From SAR116 cluster bacterium AG-325-I21 (lineage in GTDB: Bacteria; Pseudomonadota; Alphaproteobacteria; Puniceispirillales; Puniceispirillaceae), in NCBI GenBank assembly GCA_003282865.1, contig QBYK01000019.1, forward strand, positions 1 through 33,596: a stretch of 33,596 nucleotides of DNA. The letters are read 5' to 3'. The notes beneath the pieces are model-generated. The model saw only the letters and a list, made by a program, of their open reading frames with translations, did not search any database and was not told where the DNA came from. Shown piece after piece: positions 11,508 through 27,025 of the stretch (position 1 is the first letter of the stretch; every line of letters begins with the position of its first letter). A program made the position numbers and the translations under genes.

Positions 11508-11563
11508 ACTGCCCTCGTCCGCACAGGAGTAAGATTGCAAAAGAGCCCTAAAAAACAAAAACC

Positions 11564-11597
11564 GCCCCAGGCTGTAATGGTCGGGGGCTAATTTTTC
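11564..11597. terminator. Bidirectional terminator at the end of dctPQM and of tRNA remnant 1
   Basis: Stem GCCCC (11564-11568) / GGGGC (11584-11588). Toward + it is followed by TAATTTTTC; toward - by GGTTTTTGTTTTTT. The loop contains GGCTGTAATGG, resembling GGCTGTAAGGG in the terminator near 20060, so it belongs to the repeated module that accompanies the tRNA-Glu remnants as well as closing the TRAP operon. Confidence 0.75.
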
Positions 11598-11621
11598 GGG
11601 CTATACTTATTTCTTGTAGAC

Positions 11622-11690
11622 CGGCATCTCGTAGGCGACACGAACCCGTGTTGTCGACGTGAAGGGGCGATATTAAGGTCCCAAAAAATT
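11622..11690 (-). repeat. tRNA-Glu 3'-half remnant 1 (att-scar unit)
   Basis: Positions 11622-11669 read on the - strand as a degraded 3' half of tRNA-Glu: anticodon arm with a loop close to CTTTCAC, then a T-arm with GGTTCGTGTC in place of GGTTCGAATCC, then a near-copy of the acceptor strand and GCCGG. It aligns along its length with the intact gene at 26950-27025 but carries several substitutions. The following tail (11670-11690) is barely recognisable. This is the most decayed of the remnants that still have a T-arm and also the farthest from the tRNA gene, which fits it being the oldest insertion boundary. Confidence 0.75.
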
Positions 11691-11772
11691 AACAAATAAT
11701 CAACTTTATCATTCAATCTTTTGATCGTAGAAACCTCGCGTGTTATGGAGTCAACGAAAAAACCGTTTCCTG

Positions 11773-13251
11773 TTACATCTCCTTCCTAACAACTAGTTGT
11801 GAGGGTTCGTCAAAACACTCTCTGGTGTTATCCTGAAGCGTCGTAGGATAATCGCCCGTAAAACAGTGATCGGTGAATGCTGGATTATTATCATCCCTTC
11901 CATTTTTATGCCCCATGGCTTTGTATAATCCATCAACAGAGAGAAACGACAAGCTATCCGCACCGATAAATTTTCTCATTTCATCTATGGATTTGAATGA
12001 AGCCAACAACTGGCTTGGGTTTGGCGTGTCGATGCCATAAAAATCTGGAAATTTTATTGGTGGTGAAGCAATTTTCATATGGACTTCAGATGCGCCAGCT
12101 TCACGCATCAACTCAACAATCTTGACAGAAGTGGTGCCTCGGACAATCGAGTCATCAATTAAAACCACACTTTTCCCATCTACCGCTTGACGATTTACGT
12201 TATGTTTTAATTTCACACCAAAATCTCTGCTAGACTGTTGCGGTTCTATGAAGGTTCGCCCCACATAATGATTTCTTATAATACCAAGTTGGAATGGGAT
12301 TTTTGATTCTTCCGCAAATCCAAGGGCCGCGGGTACGCCGCTATCGGGAACTGGCACCACCACTTCACCAAAACTTGGCGATTCTTTGGCAAGTTGTTGA
12401 CCAATTTTTTTCCTGCACTCATAAACGCTTAATCCTCCCACCACACTGTCTGGCCTGGCAAAATAGATGTACTCAAAAATGCATGGACGATAAGGGGCAA
12501 CCGGGAAAGGCATGAAACTACGAATGCCTTGATCAGATATTACAACAACCTCTCCATTTAAAACCTCCCGAACAAATTTAGCTCCAATAATATCCAATGC
12601 ACATGTCTCTGATGACAAAATAAAAAAATCATCAAGTTTTCCGATAACCAGAGGGCGTATGCCTAAAGGGTCACGAACACCAATTAGTTTGTCACCCGTT
12701 AATGCGACCAGAGCATACGCGCCCTCAACGCTCCCCAAGGCGTCGATAAATCTTGATACTTGTTCATCCTCTATCACACTGTCATACGCCAATTTCGAAC
12801 GAGCTATTAATTGAAGGATCGTTTCCGTATCTGACGTCGACTGGAAGATTGCTCCATTTTTGACTAATTCACCTCGCAAAGTCAGGGCGTTAGTGATGTT
12901 TCCATTATGGGCCACTGCAAAACCTCCTCCCGCAAGATCAGCAAAGAGCGGTTGAACATTTCTCAATGCCGGCTCTCCAGTTGTAGAATACCGCACGTGT
13001 CCCATTGCAGAACTTCCAGGCAATTTATTAATCACAGGCTTTTTCGTGAAATTATCTCCCACAAGGCCAAGTCTTCGCTCCGAGTGAAAATGTTTACCGT
13101 CGTAGCTGACAATACCCGCCGCTTCCTGCCCACGATGCTGAAGGGCGTGCAGTCCCAGCGCTGTAATCAATGACGCTTCAGGATGCCCCCAAATCCCAAA
13201 AACACCACATTCTTCTTGCAACTTGTCGTCGCTACTGTTCCAAAGAAACAT
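11773..13251 (-). CDS. purF: Amidophosphoribosyltransferase PurF
   Basis: First committed enzyme of purine synthesis: transfers glutamine ammonia to PRPP, giving phosphoribosylamine (cytosolic). The N-terminal nucleophile domain has Cys15 in EECGVFGIWGHPEAS, after a short propeptide that would be removed. LHALQHRGQEAAGI and MGHVRYSTTG are glutaminase signatures. The PRPP loop is VVLIDDSIVRGTTS. The end contains the usual CFTGDYPT. 492 residues, full length and apparently intact. The usual neighbour cvpA is absent, and the gene lies alone between two tRNA-Glu remnants (11622 and 13447), which is odd for a housekeeping gene. It may be a second, island-borne copy or a relocated core gene; this window cannot tell. 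Confidence 0.96.
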   Translation of the reverse strand: MFLWNSSDDKLQEECGVFGIWGHPEASLITALGLHALQHRGQEAAGIVSYDGKHFHSERRLGLVGDNFTKKPVINKLPGSSAMGHVRYSTTGEPALRNVQPLFADLAGGGFAVAHNGNITNALTLRGELVKNGAIFQSTSDTETILQLIARSKLAYDSVIEDEQVSRFIDALGSVEGAYALVALTGDKLIGVRDPLGIRPLVIGKLDDFFILSSETCALDIIGAKFVREVLNGEVVVISDQGIRSFMPFPVAPYRPCIFEYIYFARPDSVVGGLSVYECRKKIGQQLAKESPSFGEVVVPVPDSGVPAALGFAEESKIPFQLGIIRNHYVGRTFIEPQQSSRDFGVKLKHNVNRQAVDGKSVVLIDDSIVRGTTSVKIVELMREAGASEVHMKIASPPIKFPDFYGIDTPNPSQLLASFKSIDEMRKFIGADSLSFLSVDGLYKAMGHKNGRDDNNPAFTDHCFTGDYPTTLQDNTRECFDEPSQLVVRKEM

Positions 13252-13282
13252 TTTGGCCCTCGGTTCTTGGGTATGAAAATCA

Positions 13283-26663: not shown

Positions 26664-26778
26664 CGGAATACAAATATTTACAATATCTGATTCGCAATTA
26701 CTTAATTTTAGCGCGTCGAACACGCTCTGATATAACCCTCCACAACACATATTTTACGAAACTTTTGTATAAAACTAT

Positions 26779-26866
26779 GCGTGAAGGGCGGTTTTTAATG
26801 GTTTCTAAGGCTTAGTTTTTAGGGTTTCTGGGATATTTTGGTGTGTGCTAGTAGCCATTGGTACGC
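26779..26866 (-). repeat. Remnant 6: anticodon-arm fragment plus tail, adjoining the intact tRNA unit
   Basis: GCGTGAAGGGCGGTTTTTAATGG at 26779-26801 (split: core 26779-26792, tail after it) resembles the CCGTGAAAGGGCGGTTTTAATAGG join of unit 5; the tail goes on through GGGATATTTTGGTGTGTGC and ends TTGGTACGC. The T-arm and acceptor are absent. Immediately to the right lie AAAAACTGGACTGAAA, a hairpin and the intact tRNA-Glu, so only about 80 bases separate this scar from the tRNA CCA end. The 115 bases between the Fe-S gene and this point show nothing else. Confidence 0.7.
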
Positions 26867-26882
26867 AAAAACTGGACTGAAA

Positions 26883-26910
26883 CAAAAATACAACCCCCTG
26901 CCTGTCAGGG
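26883..26910 (-). terminator. Putative tRNA-Glu terminator
   Basis: Perfect 5-bp stem CCCTG/CAGGG (26896-26900, 26906-26910) about 40 bases downstream of the tRNA 3' end on the - strand, followed by GGGTTGTATTTTTG. The T-tract is interrupted, so efficiency is uncertain. The same position in each scar unit holds a related hairpin. Confidence 0.55.
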
Positions 26911-26949
26911 CTGAAGGCTTGTTTTTAGCGCTGTGCTTGGGTTGTAGGC

Positions 26950-27025
26950 TGGCATCCCGTAGGGGATTCGAACCCCTGTTGCCGCCGTGAAAGGGCAGTG
27001 TCCTAGGCCTCTAGACGAACGGGAC
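26950..27025 (-). tRNA. tRNA-Glu (anticodon TTC)
   Basis: 76-nt cloverleaf with encoded CCA. Acceptor GTCCCGT/ACGGGAT, D-arm TCGTCTAGAGGCCTAGGA region, anticodon loop CTTTCAC with TTC at 26989-26991, T-arm CAGGGGTTCGAATCCCCT (split pairs AGGGG/CCCCT). The anticodon stem has a U28-G42 wobble: the 5' strand reads CTGCC opposite GGCGG, whereas scar units 3 and 5 have CCGCC on the 5' side. That is what one expects if the gene's 3' half was replaced by an element's copy. It is the only intact tRNA in the window and the apparent target site of the array. Confidence 0.96.

Follow-up and report, generated by a model that had tools for sequence, protein, structure and literature searches.

The stretch of DNA described here (the window, 33,596 nucleotides) is the whole contig C19 (QBYK01000019.1) of the assembly of SAR116 cluster bacterium AG-325-I21 (2.16 Mb, 80% complete), a genome whose RecJ is 81% identical to RecJ of Candidatus Puniceispirillum sp. 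BS307, with the remaining matches at 50% identity or less; the host is accordingly regarded as an alphaproteobacterium of SAR116 type. The window contains an intact tRNA-Glu(TTC) gene next to recJ and, adjoining it, an array of small gene cassettes (units A to F), where six partial copies of the 3′ half of this tRNA, all on the strand of the intact gene, cut the DNA into cargo units. The features of the array are listed below from recJ outwards. P and P′ denote the two arms of a phage attachment site (attP), and R1 is a sequence-only model of the tail adjoining the halves, built from ten aligned host tails (alignment A1), i.e., from host copies alone. Host genomes, contigs and loci carry G, C and L numbers, G000 being the genome of the window.

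27143-28957, minus strand: recJ, conserved chromosomal flank upstream of the tRNA (Pfam; collinear in relatives)
26950-27025, minus strand: intact tRNA-Glu(TTC), the attachment site (ARAGORN; Rfam tRNA, 53.2 bits)
26866-26948, minus strand: P′ arm of the cargo-less unit F, with conserved stretch, terminator and arm site CAGTCCAG (phage P′ profile, E 3.6e-16)
26794-26890, minus strand: P arm of unit F, joined to P′ at a common arm site (R1, 64.7 bits; model seed)
26779-26792, minus strand: tRNA-Glu anticodon-arm remnant, a scar (sequence)
21758-26663, plus strand: cargo of unit E, i.e., TctC, TctA, TctB, RidA and an Fe-S/CCG protein (Pfam)
21599-21712, minus strand: phage gene end beside the P arm of unit E, reading ..PERMRKVGSKGAPTAKAF.. 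(translations of the window and of phage L192; blastx)
21499-21599, minus strand: P arm of unit E, with CAGTCCAG-type arm sites (R1, 86.0 bits; model seed)
21448-21497, minus strand: tRNA-Glu 3′ half (98% of 50 nt)
21362-21435, minus strand: P′ arm of unit D, with the TTGGGGAGTAA string (nhmmer 1.9e-8)
20430-20957, plus strand: cargo of unit D, a lipoprotein-like open reading frame (ORF) of 175 residues, no family match (family searches)
20098-20111, minus strand: tRNA-Glu anticodon-arm remnant, a scar (second TTGGGGAGTAA string at about 20136-20146)
20025-20082, minus strand: P′ arm of unit C (nhmmer 6.5e-7)
16169-19611, minus strand: cargo of unit C, DUF1800 (17338-19611) and DUF1501 (16169-17335) (Pfam)
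15916-16015, minus strand: P arm of unit C, with CGATAC-type arm sites (R1, 71.2 bits; model seed)
15866-15914, minus strand: tRNA-Glu 3′ half (88%)
15783-15863, minus strand: P′ arm of unit B (nhmmer 9.1e-10)
13787-15631, plus strand: cargo of unit B, an ATP-binding cassette (ABC) exporter (Pfam)
13497-13594, minus strand: P arm of unit B, arm sites decayed (R1, 66.2 bits; model seed)
13447-13495, minus strand: tRNA-Glu 3′ half (85% over 40 nt)
11773-13251, minus strand: cargo of unit A, purF (TIGR01134, 475.7 bits; cut-off 350)
11622-11671, minus strand: tRNA-Glu 3′ half, break point versus G006 (83%)
11547-11611, minus strand: P′ arm of the dctPQM unit (nhmmer 7.3e-8)
8640-11507, plus strand: dctP, dctQ and dctM of a tripartite ATP-independent periplasmic (TRAP) transporter, cargo of the oldest recognisable unit (Pfam; dctPQM also at the tRNA-Glu arrays of G018, G030 and G066)

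The tRNA-Glu scars and the phage arms that adjoin them

The intact tRNA-Glu and its six same-strand remnants had been reported in the first-pass annotation of this DNA, and all of them were confirmed. Four are strong halves of 40-50 nucleotides (21448-21497, 98% of 50 nt; 15866-15914, 88%; 13456-13495, 85%; 11623-11668, 83%), while the scars at 20098-20111 and 26779-26792 comprise at most 14 nucleotides of the anticodon arm and would look like chance if taken alone. The latter two gain meaning because phage arms adjoin both, a P arm abutting the scar at 26779 (R1, 64.7 bits) and a P′ arm the scar at 20098 (nhmmer 6.5e-7). The cassettes end distally in a direct repeat of a tRNA fragment, and the recombination point of the tRNA-Glu site lies within the anticodon arm. 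The earlier list of cargo intervals also stood, save that it missed dctPQM (8640-11507), which looks like a seventh unit, and that the interval 26793-26949 is a unit without cargo. A BLAST search of the own genome with the 110-bp tRNA region found six places, of which the four strong ones (the tRNA and three halves) are all on the window contig and the two lying elsewhere have E of 0.39 and 0.72. Relatives were searched with the profile model of the tail, as had been proposed, and among 136 genomes of the order R1 matched at 17 places, 16 of them within tRNA-Glu or tRNA-Asp arrays; the other (E 0.001) is in G090, where the 3-kb locus is devoid of tRNA genes. Since ten of the 17 are the seeds of the model itself, the independent support amounts to six of seven. 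Contigs of several other genomes (G033 C265 and C185, G007 C184, G069 C160, G084 C80, G080 C121) begin or end within 6 bases of a tRNA-Glu 3′ half, as is expected if populations are mixed for insertions there.

The tail led to phages. A scan of viral contigs with the tail pattern gave three contigs, of which L192 and L193 have the tail adjoining a tyrosine integrase and phage genes; the third, L194, turned out to be unrelated. Relatives of the two integrases brought the set to 60 viral loci (L192 and L193 included), and an R1 tail lies upstream of the integrase in 33 of them at E ≤ 5e-6 and in 38 at E ≤ 1, some of those without a match ending short upstream. The viral layout opens with a P arm bearing arm sites of 11 bp; the 3′ half of a tRNA (Glu, Asp or Ala) comes next, followed by the P′ arm and then the integrase, the P′ arm being composed of a conserved stretch, a terminator and arm sites of the same type as in the P arm. 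Among 26 distinct attP the longest string common to both arms has a mean length of 15 nt, compared with 6.7 in permuted pairs, and none of 10,000 permutations reached it. The tail common to the host units is therefore the P arm of a phage attP, and sites of attP type (P arm, tRNA half, P′ arm) are present in the host units. In the light of this single viral layout, the terminator, half and tail of the first-pass annotation correspond to P′, core and P, and the terminator is not a separate part but belongs to the phage P′ arm. The recombinase with matching att arms, which was suggested to be sought elsewhere, was thus found in phages. Comparison with described phages gave no close match: among 50,697 phage records, tblastn with the phage integrase hit 35, each below 60% identity and none covering 80%, megablast with 13 kb of a 34-kb viral contig gave no match, and lysozyme matches are distant only.

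In the first 60 alignment columns of 21 phage integrases (loci L212-L259), the N-terminus goes with the type of arm site. Where integrase bodies are less than 45% identical, N-termini agree at a mean of 66% for the same arm type (20 pairs, 58-70) versus 51% for another type (90 pairs, 35-65), and where bodies are at least 85% identical, at 93% (14 pairs) versus 68% (40 pairs); the ranges overlap, the pairs are non-independent and the arm types were assigned by eye. It looks as if the arm-binding domain and the arm sites are swapped jointly among phage integrases.

The host units carry the arms without the enzyme. In 47 host loci, a P′ profile made from 29 phage sequences detected 27 P′ sites oriented like the tRNA. 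Searches by tblastn with two phage integrases found none beside these 27 sites in the stretches fetched, PF00589 of any kind had no match inside their loci (12 genomes, 5 + 7), and the 11 PF00589 matches of the own genome are all on contigs other than that of the window, so that the earlier statement that the array has no recombinase gene holds. In viral contigs with the P′ pattern, an integrase ORF or its start follows directly in 24 out of 24; 18 of these come from the set of integrase relatives, tblastn matched five of the remaining six, and the start in L282 is the same as in L279. When 24 host loci were compared by blastx with the frames of 82 phage loci (mostly partial genomes), att regions and short ends of phage genes beside P were found, and no other phage genes (structural or replication) appeared in the arrays. 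These ends span 36, 79 and 41 aligned residues in the window, L119 and L122, and the stretch before P of unit E is the end of a small gene also present in phage L192. A resident integrase of a different kind is encoded in G064 (L174; 26-31% match), not beside a P′ site. At the tRNA-Glu of G004 there is a 12.5-kb island (C1, 143571-156135) whose end repeats the final 23 nt of the tRNA; its 430-residue integrase near the far end is of another type, cutting nearer the T loop, and the island contains DUF1800/DUF1501 genes homologous to those of unit C.

Two units consist of arms only, i.e., the window interval 26793-26949 and the tRNA-Asp locus of G014 (L120), where P′ is joined to P at a common arm site; the simplest reading is a deletion between direct arm-site repeats. 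The stretch after P′ common to unit B and to unit 1 of G006 begins with phage-like integrase-promoter sequence and therefore does not speak for a separate element family. Hairpins of the GTTACCGC type, resembling the tRNA anticodon arm, occur near three P arms (window 13633-13656 and 20184-20207; L117 13198); none was seen in 82 phage loci, yet 79 control loci gave similar matches at 8 places.

Unit gain, separate histories and the array copy of purF

The same tRNA locus holds variable cassettes in related genomes. On either side of the site, G002 (without a unit) and G012 align collinearly at 85-87%, and G012 has an additional 1.8 kb between the tRNA and a 3′-half copy. An extra 1.5-kb TauD unit in G065 relative to G062 (93-95% identity) and an extra 3.8-kb dctPQM unit in G030 relative to G035 likewise lie at a tRNA half. 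This clean presence or absence of intervals bears out the earlier idea of repeated insertion at one tRNA. G006 matches the left flank of the window up to the first scar and the right flank from the tRNA on (the flanks being on two contigs), with other cargo in between, namely an ABC uptake system with a racemase and a beta-lactamase-fold protein, and G014 has the purF unit in common with the window and then diverges within a P arm. G065 also has an ABC exporter, oriented opposite to that of the window.

Single units have histories of their own. Between G030 and G066, identity at fourfold sites is 57% for RecJ and 61% for HomDH (the flanks), 64% for TAXI-TRAP, 91% for a methyltransferase (91 sites) and 30% for DctM. 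The methyltransferase unit is therefore younger than the split of the two genomes; its homologous part (88.5% over 1.4 kb) extends from the tRNA half across P′ as far as the beginning of P and has no phage genes. TAXI-TRAP looks vertically inherited, and judged by the same sites the two dctPQM units are non-orthologous; dctPQM adjoins the tRNA in G030 and is the most distal unit in G066, an order that agrees with the fourfold-site histories. DctM is 91-93% identical in all pairs of four genomes, RecJ 49-84%, and this similarity is not relied on because saturation of the fourfold sites in distant pairs leaves constraint as a possible cause. Some cargo may be defence-like, i.e., a protein with a caspase domain and nucleotidyl cyclases that weakly match Pycsar cyclases (L172 12239-14176; L176 11597-13345; L296 1710-3572).

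Similar units are found at tRNA-Asp, and Glu halves sit at tRNA-Glu as Asp halves sit at tRNA-Asp. The cargo at the tRNA-Asp scar comprises CobW and a WD40 protein in G021, with GTGCTACTTTT on both sides, an aldehyde dehydrogenase, DUF779 and PF03601 in G061, and a 646-residue ORF without Pfam match in G064; no phage integrase matches were obtained in these three units. In G065, GTTGTAG arms lie on two contigs.

The purF of unit A is the only one found in the own assembly. Exactly one purF match (E ≤ 1e-30) is present in 15 of the 16 genomes of the genus and none in G006; this match lies in the array for G000, G014 and G010, and elsewhere for the other 12 (60-62% identical). At the native locus, which still holds purF in G002, G004 and G005 and whose neighbours we take to be radA, cvpA and an SDR gene, only end fragments persist in G000 (C2, about 58247-58608; L306 4748-5109) and G014 (L304 3747-4130), and none in G010 (99% complete; L305 between 4811 and 5137). 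Cassette-borne purF has replaced the native gene, the simplest reading being a single event in a common ancestor.

Origin of the units

The preferred reading, to which a probability of about 0.57 is assigned, is that the array consists of stacked integrase-less units with phage-type attP arms, which entered through a tyrosine integrase at the anticodon arm of tRNA-Glu, the integrase being provided in trans. A unit runs from a tRNA 3′ half through the P′ arm (conserved stretch, terminator and 11-bp arm sites), the cargo and the P arm (arm sites and a CTACCAAC block) to the displaced 3′ half, and its arms are those of temperate phages whose attP carries a tRNA-Glu, -Asp or -Ala 3′ half beside the integrase gene. 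The units would lack an integrase already while moving, the enzyme, and perhaps the capsid, being supplied by an infecting or co-resident phage; the newest unit would adjoin the restored tRNA, and useful cargo (transporters, purF) would be retained. Recombination between the direct arm-site repeats of P′ and P, with loss of the DNA between them, would give rise to the cargo-less units.

In support of this reading, the same arm string is present at both ends of G006 unit 1 (GGTCACG) and unit 2 (TTGGATAC), G030 unit 1 (TTTGGCAAC), G066 unit 1 (GTTATAG), the G012 unit and window unit D (TTGGGGAGTAA); arms are mismatched or decayed in window units B and C, G018, G030 unit 3 and G065 unit 1, among others. 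At least 9 nt in common were found in 5 of 20 true pairs versus 19 of 380 mismatched ones (76 of 20,000 permutations), and in four of eight tRNA-proximal units versus one of 12 older ones, where decay and reshuffling would explain the mismatch. This is also where the points that weigh against the preferred reading begin: the 9-nt threshold was set after the summed score had proved not significant (2253 of 10,000 permutations for 20 units without F, 645 of 10,000 with F), and the rate in older units is low. A far-end scar beyond dctPQM and a P′ arm in unit E were not found. Directly beyond the tRNA-Asp scar of G021, and pointing at it, lies a broken C-terminal PF00589 fragment (C1, 218709-218906; L293 1210-1407), so that an integrase-bearing element was once present there, which slightly lowers the confidence. 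Among viral contigs no unit without an integrase turned up: those with the P′ pattern all bear one, and protein searches of viral contigs with DUF1800 and the TAXI-TRAP permease for packaged units gave none; since the contigs in IMG/VR are selected by viral signals, this lack says little either way. The L193-type integrase was found in none of 61 genomes of the family at E ≤ 1e-12, in a search without positive control and with a null that is weakened by the possible loss of prophages in the binning of metagenome-assembled genomes. The phage-gene ends at P and the integrase-promoter-like traces at P′ fit degraded phage genomes too.

As a rival explanation, the units may be residues of whole temperate phages that carried host genes (specialised transduction or morons) and their own integrase, and lost the phage genes by internal deletion, the array being a prophage graveyard. 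Those traces, present in some units, agree with such decay, as do the match of array arms to phage arms and the cargo-less units of the window and of G014, which look like deletions between direct P′/P arm-site repeats. It is nevertheless less likely than the preferred reading: the examined tRNA-Glu arrays yielded neither an integrase nor any other phage gene, the failure to find an L193-type lysogen counts here as well, units of only 1.5-3.8 kb were gained between relatives, the methyltransferase unit of G030 and G066 is homologous from tRNA half to P without phage genes, and no intermediate was seen. More doubtful still is the explanation by ordinary tRNA islands, each of which had an integrase of its own and later lost it, the phage arms reflecting only common ancestry of the integrase type. 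Loss of the integrase after insertion is common for islands, other resident integrases exist (the 11 PF00589 matches of the own genome), and the G004 island with its 430-residue integrase at the same tRNA, the broken integrase end in G021 and a lone inverted half copy in G064, about 2.4 kb from a resident integrase, point the same way; however, at none of the 27 P′ sites does an integrase or a fragment of one follow, the youngest, tRNA-proximal units included. That the halves are chance matches or a dispersed tRNA-derived repeat (like short interspersed or miniature inverted-repeat elements) unrelated to gene gain, as the two shortest scars of at most 14 nt could suggest, has next to no credibility and was rejected: halves and tails sit, with few exceptions, at the cognate tRNA, and the gain and loss of intervals exactly at the halves contradict it.

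Relation to known systems

Cassette islands at tRNAs without a visible mobility gene have been reported from several streamlined aquatic bacteria. As far as the available text of the sources goes, small tRNA-anchored cassettes with tRNA-fragment repeats are known in other aquatic bacteria as additive flexible islands (Ca. Actinomarinales, PMC7771536; Alteromonas, PMC4119200; Ca. Methylopumilus, PMC10872708), which have in common with the SAR116 units the small cassettes at a tRNA and the direct repeats of tRNA fragments; Actinomarinales also has a tRNA-Glu locus with adjoining ABC transporter genes (PMC7771536). Accretion at tRNAs as such is therefore not new, since it has been published for other marine bacteria, and in HIMB59 an argument has been made, in the part of the paper available, against tRNA-borne islands (PMC10734472). 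For the small cassettes of Actinomarinales and Methylopumilus the accessible text names no recombinase and describes no conserved arms, whereas arms of identified phages, P′ on one side and P on the other, enclose the cargo of the SAR116 units. Integrase-bearing marine phages of groups G16 and G18 were linked to SAR116 through a tRNA-matching attP beside the integrase; the portions of that report at hand describe no cargo units or arrays, and kinship with the viral contigs analysed here is a candidate only (PMC3861242).

A temperate prophage differs in having phage structural and replication genes between its att sites, which were not found in the SAR116 units by blastx against the 82, mostly partial, phage loci. 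PICIs have their own integrase and regulators. Phage satellites in general bring an integrase, which was not found in the SAR116 units, where neither a satellite gene nor a packaging site or induction is known. The satellites PICI and PICMI are likewise small, integrated and phage-dependent, judged by the excerpts available, such dependence being only presumed for the SAR116 units (PMC11389934, PMC10803314). CALIN, integron cassette arrays without integrase, resemble the units, according to the same partly available source, which deals with hitchers too, in forming an array of small cassettes served by an integrase in trans, which for SAR116 is likely rather than observed (PMC11389934). Entry into integrons is at attI, while the SAR116 units have an attP-type site with tRNA half and arm sites and enter at a tRNA. 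Tycheposons without an integrase presumably can exist. Those described in the accessible part of PMC10872708 have similar tRNA-bordered, nutrient-related cargo in streamlined aquatic bacteria, and they differ in possessing a tyrosine recombinase and a size of 4-200 kb, the SAR116 units having no recombinase and about 1.3 to 6 kb or no cargo.

A broader picture, which is tentative and somewhat less probable than its alternatives taken together, is that SAR116 possesses distributed, integron-like cassettes for which a tRNA is the entry, a phage attP the cassette site, and the recombinase is borrowed from temperate phages that swap arm domains; such a system would move operons between genera, stack them and at times replace core genes such as purF. 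Should this hold, phages would carry nutrient-uptake operons from one genus to another without lysogeny becoming visible, and an essential biosynthetic gene would have given way to a mobile cassette. No description of phage-armed, integrase-less tRNA cassettes was found in the open-licence literature. What is new in comparison with the systems above is the replacement of purF and the phage arms that name the recombinase family: because the arms left on the cassettes identify both this family and the phages, what moves such cassettes becomes testable.

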